A DNA stretch of 64,000 nucleotides from Morinoia aosen (Eukaryota > Arthropoda > Malacostraca > Amphipoda > Talitridae): positions 41,766,232 to 41,830,231 of the forward strand of contig CM059572.1 in NCBI GenBank assembly GCA_030386875.1. The letters are read 5' to 3'. The translations under genes and the position numbers were made by a program. Below the pieces are notes generated by a model that was given only the letters and a program-made list of their open reading frames with translations, did no database searches and was not told where the DNA came from. Below, piece by piece: positions 11,001 to 38,408 of this stretch; the first letter of the stretch is position 1, and every line of letters starts with the position of its first letter.

Positions 11001-14000
11001 AAGTAGCTCCTGCATGTTCAAAATTTTATTTTTGTTCCAAAAAATTGTTCATTAGCAAATATTAGTAGCTGGTGCTGATGGACAAGTTATGGTCTTAATT
11101 TACATTATTTGAAGGCTAAAGCAGCGTTTTAAAATAGATGACAACCAACATGAGCAGAGTGCCACATTCTCAGGTTATTGCTTCAGTCCCATTCTGCCAG
11201 GACACCCGAGTAGAAGAAGGAGAAAAGTAATAGTCCTCAGTTCTGACGTTTTCACTTCAATTTTTATTCTGTTACAGGTTGTGAGAACTCACCCGGTGCA
11301 CCCAGAGCTTGTGTCAGGCACCTTCGTCTGCCTTGATTGCCAGACTGTTGTTAAAGATGTGGAGCAGCAATTTAAGGTAAAGGAGCTGTTGAAGTTACTC
11401 TGTAGAATGTGGAACAGCAATTTAAGGTAGAGGAGCTGTTGAAGTTACTCGTAGAATGTGGAGCAGCAATTTAAGGTAGAGGAGCTGTTGAAGTTACTCG
11501 TAGAATGTGGAGCAGCAATTTATGTTAGAGGAGCTGTTGAAGTTACTCGTAGAATGTGGAGCAGCAATTTAAGGTAGAGGAGCTGTTGAAGTTACTCTGT
11601 AGAATGTGGAACAGCAATTTAAGGTAGAGGAGCTGTTGAAGTTACTCTGTAGAATGTGGAGCAGCGATTTAAGGTAGAGGAGCTGTTGATTTTACTCGTA
11701 GAATGTGGAGCAGCAATTTAAGGTAGAGGAGCTGTTGAAGTTACTCTGTAGAATGTGGAGCAGCAATTTAAGGTAGAGGAGCTGTTGATTTTACTCGTAG
11801 AATGTGGAGCAGCAATTTATGGTAGAGAAGCTGTTGAAGTTACTCGTAGAATGTGGAGCAGCAATTTACGGTAGAGGAGCTGTTGAAGTTACTCTGTAGA
11901 ATGTGGAGCAGCGATTTAAGGTAGAGGAGCTGTTGATTTTACTCGTAGAATGTGGAGCAGCAATTTAATTTAGAGGAGCTGTTGAAGTTACTCGTAGAAT
12001 GTGGAGCAGCAATTTACGGTAGAGGAGCTGTTGATTTTACTCGTAGAATGTGGAGCAGCAATTTAAGGTAGAGGAGCTGTTGAAGTTACTCGTAGAATGT
12101 GGAGCAGCAATTTACGGTAGAGGAGCTGTTGAAGTTACTCTGTAGAATGTGGAGCAGCGATTAAAGGTAGGTTTTGGGTGTAGAGCAGCTATTTAAGGTA
12201 TTCCTTTAAATGTGGAGCAGTAATATCAGGTAGTCTTCAGGGTGTAGGGTTTAAGGTATGCTTAAGGATGTGGAGCAGCAATTTAGGGTAGTCTTGGGGG
12301 GTTTGACTCAGTATTTCAAGGTATTTCCATAGGAAAACACCGAGCTGACGTTGCTTTTATCAAGCATGCCAAAATAATATAATGCTTTTCAACATAGAAC
12401 CAAGTAACTGCTGTCATATTTTTCAGCATCTCTGACTTTTTGCTTCAACTTTTATATTGTTTTAGAATTTGCGTTTCAACTCACTGTTTCTATGCACAGA
12501 GGATCTTGTATGGGAACACACCTGTGCAAAGATTCTGCTTTCCTTTAATTCCATAGTAAATTTGTGGAGAATCCACACAAATAGGTTCAATGGTAAACAG
12601 GGAATGACAGCTAAAAAGTTTTATTGGACGCTGCAAGTAGCAGTAAATTTAGATGTTACGAACCATTCAATAGGCCGAACATCAGGATCGTAGGTTCACG
12701 AGCCAGGAACAAGAATTAATCCACTAGGACAAATCTTAGGACTAACGCCTGCCCAGCGTGTAAGATTACAAACTTACATAAGTCTAGTTAACATCAGCAA
12801 GGTTCAGGAACGAACGATCTAAGGTTAACCTAGATAAACGAAAGAAAGGCGATCCCTATAAATTAACAAAAATGGCGACTCCTTGCATGGTGGCTAAAAA
12901 AGCAGCAGCACTGTTTCCACTACGAAGGCGCGAAACCTTGCATTCTTCAGCGGCGATCCCAATCAGCTTGCGGCGTGGCCCTCCAGAGGACTGGCCGTTC
13001 GCCCAGCAGGCAACATTCAAGCCGCATGGCCCCGATAATCGTCATTAGTTTAACGCAGCTTTAGTAGGCCGATCAACAGCCAGGGTAGCCAGTACCGCAC
13101 AACCGAAATGACAGCCTCCTCTGAGATCGCAGCGCAGAATTAAAACCAGCAGTCCCGCAACGCTCCCGGTAGAGCAGCCTCAACTGGGCTTTTGGAGCCC
13201 GAAGACGCAGATACTAGAAAAATGAAACAAATGAATCAATGCAATGAAGAAGTCAATGGAGTAAGAAGTTATTCATAATGATTTTGCAGCAAACTGGAAC
13301 ATTATAGCAGGACTATTTCATATGCTAACCTGAGTTTAATTATGCCTCAGTGTGGAAGCCACTTGTAGAGTTAGAAAGATGGTAAACGTGAAGAAAAAGG
13401 CTCAACTAAGAGCAAAGTTAGGAAATAGAATTAGGTTTAAGAGTCAATAGCACTACCCGGAAAGTCAGACAGCCGGTAAGCCGTCTTTCAGTTAGGCTCC
13501 AGGTAGGATTATTTAAGTTAAGGAAAAAGGTTAAGGGCCCATTCCAAGCAAGCTCGAAATAGATTTAGGTTACATTTAAGATATCATAGTATTAAGATAT
13601 AGAAGATATTCAGGTTTAAGGATTTAATAATTCAAGAAATTTAAGGTAGCTTAACAAGATCACGCACACTCACAGTAATACAATTAACAATGGCAAGGTT
13701 ATCTATCAGAGCAATAGGACAAAGGTGATTAATTCATAAGAAATAGAAGCAAAGATGGCTTTAGGAAATAGAGAAAATAGGTGAAGACGCGATCCACCGG
13801 GACACGCGCTTGAGGACGTGCCACGGCTGAACACCGAGCGCCGGCACCCACGACTGCGGAACGCCTTTACTCTCGGGATTGATAGCCGCTGAGATCGCGA
13901 CTAAAGGTCACCACCATTGATAGGAAGTCGCAACTTAAATAAAGGAACAAAAAAGCAAGAGATACCAAACGGTACCACTGCAAACAAAAGGGATCAACCC

Positions 14001-38408: not shown

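Follow-up and report, generated by a model that had tools for sequence, protein, structure and literature searches.

Tandem duplications across exon-intron boundaries were first met here as a feature described in amphioxus, where minisatellite-like arrays of 5' or 3' intron/exon boundaries are known as "mirages" (PMC3087553, PMC3902484). In the accounts available to us, the genes affected are Adh3, the globin genes BflGb6 and BflGb9, and TnC, with imperfect cases in PGBD5, and the repeated units measure 10 to 72 bp in Adh3 and 150 to 160 bp in the globins (PMC3087553, PMC3902484). The same accounts describe a copy number that is unstable, with haplotypes of 6 and 3 units, and repeats of which many, although not all, retain AG/GT; regular splicing is reported to be undisturbed (PMC3087553, PMC3902484). 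Somatic instability has also been reported for the Adh3 mirage.

Five introns of two neighboring genes, MCM6 and CDK2, begin in the DNA analyzed here with a tandem repeat whose first unit takes in the end of the preceding exon together with the 5' splice site. The reading that we prefer, with a probability of about 0.7, is that these are mirage-type minisatellites, in which tandem duplications that include a splice junction are tolerated through splicing at the outermost site and are subsequently altered by unequal exchange or slippage and by decay.

Tandem arrays at the 5' splice sites of MCM6 and CDK2

The window (the whole 64,000-nucleotide stretch that was analyzed, C17:41766232-41830231) belongs to an assembly of 1.99 Gb in 29 contigs. 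It contains two gene models with 20 introns in total, every one of them GT-AG, and with reading frames that are open throughout:

8096..24516, forward strand, MCM6 gene model, 16 exons, 822 amino acids
27302..38408, forward strand, CDK2 gene model, 6 exons, 319 amino acids

Over its full length, the window MCM6 shares 96% identity with its counterpart in the talitrid amphipod Trinorchestia longiramus, and the next named protein matches are from decapods, at 84%, which points to a talitrid or a near relation as the probable source. For the kinase, the top matches among solved structures are to CDK2, with CDK1 ranking below.

The earlier note had reported donor-spanning arrays in five of the 20 introns, and this count was reproduced with a self-similarity test in which the 40 nt on either side of each splice site were compared with the 900 nt that follow on the intron side. 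In the window, repeats spanned 5 of the 20 donors and none of the 20 acceptors (Fisher p 0.047), and none of 151 shuffled probes passed the test. The five features are as follows:

11357..12170, forward strand, array in MCM6 intron 4, 49/50-bp unit, about 16 copies, called by TRF; donor at 11377
14730..15360, forward strand, array in MCM6 intron 5, unit of about 113 bp; donor at 14759
16680..16830, forward strand, decayed duplication in MCM6 intron 6, unit of about 72 bp, 7 nt of exon; donor at 16687
18238..18528, forward strand, array in MCM6 intron 8, 81-bp unit, 3.6 copies; donor at 18275
35954..36603, forward strand, array in CDK2 intron 4, 42-bp unit with an 84-bp higher order, about 15.5 copies; donor at 35972

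By alignment, the exon overlap was 20 nt in MCM6 intron 4, 29 nt in intron 5, 7 nt in intron 6, and 40 nt (the limit of the probe) in intron 8, and 18 nt in CDK2 intron 4. Copy 1 of the intron 4 array of MCM6 comprises the final 20 nt of exon 4 and the donor, and decayed units could be followed by eye beyond the TRF array to about 12325. TRF covered only 14741-14989 of the intron 5 array, in which six copies of the donor position were recognized by motif, one with GC instead of GT, with increasing decay. Unit 1 of the intron 8 array includes 37 to 40 nt of exon. The intron 6 duplication falls under the TRF threshold, and a stricter version of the self-similarity test flagged four of the five window arrays because the exon overlap in intron 6 is only 7 nt.

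The earlier note had judged five donor matches very unlikely by chance. Random placement of the seven TRF arrays of the window gave an expectation of 0.31 donor-spanning seed units, compared with 4 observed (p 0.0003, a value that ignores the window's selection as striking). The arrays had also been proposed to be of separate origin, as their units differ. Across 362 kb of the genome, matches to each unit were confined to its own locus and to a second copy of that locus, which supports separate origins. A dispersed repeat was rejected as the source of the units, with no match beyond the locus and its second copy in the same 362 kb.

Other repeats were noted in the window. In CDK2 intron 3, a pyrimidine-rich 22/44-bp array at 35584-35766 ends 32 nt short of the acceptor. 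A 26-bp satellite-like unit is found at 928-1079, 47138-47230, and 58138-58550 and recurs on another contig in kinesin locus L065 (1124-1207). A dispersed repeat with the words ATTGTATCTATGGGAATTAGCGCTC was seen by eye at about 16190, 36750, 38635, and 41970, in or near MCM6 and CDK2, and is possibly a transposon end.

Junction-spanning arrays in an independent sample of genes

Because the window had been picked as striking, the arrays were also sought in genes picked by family only (MCM, kinesin, and part of CCT). Loci used were 34 of the 60 in L003-L062 and 20 of the 23 in L065-L087; near-identical copies, MCM6 itself, paralogues, broken-frame loci, and unplaceable edges were left out. The CCT loci (L088-L089) represent 7 of 72 CCT matches and, after two uncertain edges had been dropped, supplied 6 donors and as many acceptors. 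Splice sites were placed with a generic weight matrix near the ends of HMM matches while the arrays were visible, and their choice was not blind. One of the 56 MCM/kinesin donors was omitted from the self-similarity test on account of a flank that was too short. Two regions met among the matches are of separate interest: at C24:71002215-71002990, three kinesin-motor exon matches lie about 300 bp apart and are perhaps a tandem duplication of a whole exon, and C27:56.8-72.4 Mb, where several full-length chaperonin (GroEL-like) frames and a number of frames matching the MCM family all lack introns, looks like pooled bacterial sequence.

Repeats spanned 6 of the 61 donors and 6 of the 62 acceptors of the whole sample (Fisher p 1.0). 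The MCM and kinesin loci accounted for 6/55 donors and 5/56 acceptors, and the CCT loci accounted for 0/6 and 1/6. The cases are as follows:

Donor, L015: 108-bp unit, 40+ nt of exon
Donor, L050: 133-bp unit, 40+ nt of exon
Donor, L066: 18-bp unit, 7 nt of exon
Donor, L071: 68-bp unit, 34 nt of exon (55 by TRF)
Donor, L075: 66-bp unit, 21.7 copies, 26 nt of exon
Donor, L083: 67-bp unit, 11 nt of exon
Acceptor, L045: 152-bp unit, 6 nt of exon
Acceptor, L050: 31-bp unit, 20.7 copies, 5 nt of exon
Acceptor, L066: 157-bp unit, 35 nt of exon
Acceptor, L075: unit of about 70 bp, 12 nt of exon
Acceptor, L079: 16 nt of exon
Acceptor, L089: 72-bp unit, 24 nt of exon

Two kinesin exons (L050 and L075) are spanned at both ends. 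L075 and L079 are paralogous, and one old acceptor array may be common to both.

The earlier note had named mid-intron points, along with acceptors, as the comparison for donors. Pseudo-edges set 150 to 450 nt within introns, at which one array could be counted at several shifts, were spanned in 10/55, 8/55, 7/55, and 6/52 cases on the donor side and in 9/56, 8/56, 4/56, and 6/51 cases on the acceptor side. Interior points were thus spanned at a rate similar to that of real edges, and junctions are no likelier to lie inside repeats than is the intron interior. The positions of array ends were assessed by placing 86 arrays randomly over 169,686 collapsed bases in 3000 runs. Array starts within 60 nt of donors numbered 13, versus 3.75 expected (0 of 3000 runs as high), and array ends within 60 nt of acceptors numbered 11, versus 3.93 expected (p 0.001), an approximately three-fold enrichment near both types of splice site. 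Random duplication alone is therefore insufficient, unless intron middles lose arrays faster; transposon-driven loss of arrays there could be the source of the clustering. Growth of arrays in once-short introns was set aside as a cause, since the array-free introns of MCM6 are themselves 383 to 1046 nt long. We read the edge clustering as a real effect, and some link to the junctions survives.

It is possible, although in our view rather unlikely, that both junction types are preferred start points for duplication in this lineage, whether through transcription or splicing intermediates or through a composition step at exon edges. Such hot spots would account for the three-fold crowding of array ends near donors and acceptors in the independent sample, but they sit poorly with intron-interior points that are covered as much as the junctions, and the clustering was measured from junctions that were not chosen blind to the arrays. 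If hot spots of this kind exist, mirages would be a mutational signature that intron ends acquire generally and convergently, and they would provide a lasting supply of redundant splice sites and of new introns.

The sample also bears on the suggestion that donors are a special target, on account of R-loops or nascent-RNA structure at 5' splice sites or of RNA-templated repair there. The statement that no acceptor is duplicated in this way was correct for the window, with its 5/20 donors and 0/20 acceptors, but does not extend to the rest of the genome, where the sampled acceptors are spanned as often as the sampled donors and by repeats that include up to 35 nt of exon (L066). Some features do lean toward donors. 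With the sample count restricted to TRF arrays that extend 6 nt or more to both sides of the junction, donor-spanning seeds numbered 3 (1.01 expected, p 0.08) and acceptor-spanning seeds 0 (1.08 expected). The exon share of the matches was smaller at acceptors overall, with donor cases tending to include more. Most acceptor cases either consist of two copies, are decayed, or share just 5 to 6 nt with the exon; under a minimum of 8 nt of exon, 5/61 donors and 4/62 acceptors remained. In view of the TRF seeds and the weak acceptor cases, there may be a mild donor lean in junction-spanning arrays. However, the more sensitive self-similarity test found donors and acceptors alike in the sample, and window and sample combined gave 11/81 donors versus 6/82 acceptors (p 0.21); the comparison of window donors with sample donors gave a Fisher p of 0.13. 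A mechanism confined to donors is not needed. The donor-only pattern is no rule outside the window, and with acceptor cases at L045, L050, L066, L075, L079, and L089 such a mechanism is largely rejected; we consider it very improbable.

Choice among the duplicated splice sites

When MCM6 is read with its outermost donors, 788 of its 822 residues match Trinorchestia MCM6, with zero gaps at the junctions. This supports, rather than proves, use of the outermost donor in MCM6. As scored with a generic matrix, internal donors equal or exceed the first donor in MCM6 intron 8 (3 of 3), L075 (20 of 20), and L066 (8 of 8), so that position rather than strength must decide there. Most internal donors score below the first in MCM6 intron 4 (15 of 16), CDK2 intron 4 (14 of 15), and L071 (2 of 3), where donor strength may help, and those of MCM6 intron 5 are divided, with 3 of 5 higher and 2 of 5 lower. 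Reading through the intron meets a stop ahead of the second donor in MCM6 introns 5, 6, and 8 and just past the second donor in MCM6 intron 4; in CDK2 intron 4, the stop is at nt 75, past the second donor at nt 42. A preference for the site transcribed first could explain the choice of an outermost donor, not that of an outermost acceptor. Exon definition could explain an outermost choice at donors and acceptors alike.

Six of the eleven donor arrays were counted for GT, which 61 of their 64 intronic units retain, and the donor 9-mer is less variable than intron-derived columns in 5 of the 6. Such constancy might be expected if selection kept the arrays because spare splice sites aid or regulate splicing. 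The donor is less variable than exon-derived columns in only 3 of the 6 arrays, however, and the arrays are few and young, with those of MCM6 introns 5 and 6 decaying. We regard maintenance by selection as having little to recommend it.

Array instability between two copies of the locus

The same contig carries, 2.685 Mb further downstream, a near-identical second MCM6/CDK2 locus (C17, about 44.45-44.49 Mb). The two copies show one base difference in a 3.5-kb stretch and three single-base differences outside the arrays across the 7.6 kb compared. The MCM6 intron 4 array has 16 units in the window and 10 in the second copy, from which exactly six exon-adjoining units are absent; the ten units common to both are in the same order. 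The donor context is GTAGAG in the second copy versus GTAAAG in the window. Since the six missing units adjoin exon 4, the exon-borne copy took part in the exchange, whichever its direction. In CDK2 intron 4, the order of the units differs in the second copy, in which the array seems to be longer, as judged from a comparison that stops short of its end. MCM and kinesin loci on C16, C3, C9, and C15 are likewise paired and are 98 to 99.5% alike; the paired loci are either unpurged haplotypes or recent duplications. Assembly artefact, which copy numbers that differ between near-identical loci of one assembly might suggest, is rejected as highly improbable, because the ten variant units stand in identical order in both copies, the units carry point changes and decay gradually, and comparable arrays are present on other contigs.

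Origin and persistence of the arrays

If the arrays are mirage-type minisatellites, as we prefer to read them, their history may have begun in introns rich in local tandem duplications, some of which would take in a splice junction. Duplications at both junction types, with independent units, are observed. Were splicing to keep to the outermost site, meaning the donor that lies farthest 5' or the acceptor that lies farthest 3', as we infer, the extra copies would remain intronic and the protein unchanged, and selection would then not remove the arrays. An array could subsequently grow or shrink by unequal exchange or slippage that includes the exon-borne copy, a recombination mechanism to which the observed six-unit change next to exon 4 points, while old units would decay by point mutation. 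The data support two ideas of the earlier note, namely, that duplication was repeated, independent, and in place over time and that extra donors are tolerated. Counting against the mirage reading are the clustering of array ends near both types of splice site and the donor excess among TRF seeds (3 to 0) and in the window, as well as the weaker internal donors of MCM6 intron 4, CDK2 intron 4, and L071.

The presence of mirages at about 1 in 10 sampled splice sites of a crustacean suggests that they originate wherever introns are rich in minisatellites. Junction-spanning arrays amount to natural experiments in which the spliceosome has to choose one among many similar sites, and they suggest a way, open to testing, in which introns could be gained and alternative splice sites could arise.

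Comparison with known systems

Ordinary intronic minisatellites or VNTRs resemble these arrays in unit sizes, copy-number change, and decay at the far end. They differ in that the first (or last) unit here is made of coding exon and a working splice site. In intron gain by tandem duplication, as described in the accounts available to us, the duplicated stretch likewise contains splice signals (PMC2891723, PMC4974935, PMC2812944). Here, in contrast, the copies sit inside an existing intron with no new or shifted junction, and comparison at the protein level found no new intron position in MCM6, which is gapless against the Trinorchestia protein.

The closest likeness is to the mirages of amphioxus. 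The host in this case is an amphipod crustacean, and a literature search, mostly of titles and the openings of abstracts and covering few subscription papers, found no report of mirage-like arrays in amphipods or other crustaceans among the papers listed. Further differences are the copy number, which is about 21 at the L075 donor and likewise at the L050 acceptor, and the frequency, about one junction in ten within the sampled genes. As in mirages, both 5' and 3' boundaries are duplicated (6/61 donors and 6/62 acceptors in the sample, donors only in the window), although the acceptor cases L045 and L050 hold only 6 and 5 nt of exon. GT is retained in 61 of 64 units of the six donor arrays counted, and copy number varies between two near-identical copies of the locus, be they alleles or duplicates. 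For splicing that may be undisturbed here too, the gapless alignment of outermost-donor MCM6 to that of Trinorchestia offers indirect support. All of the mirage features that could be tested directly were found here, and the window arrays appear to fit the mirage type.
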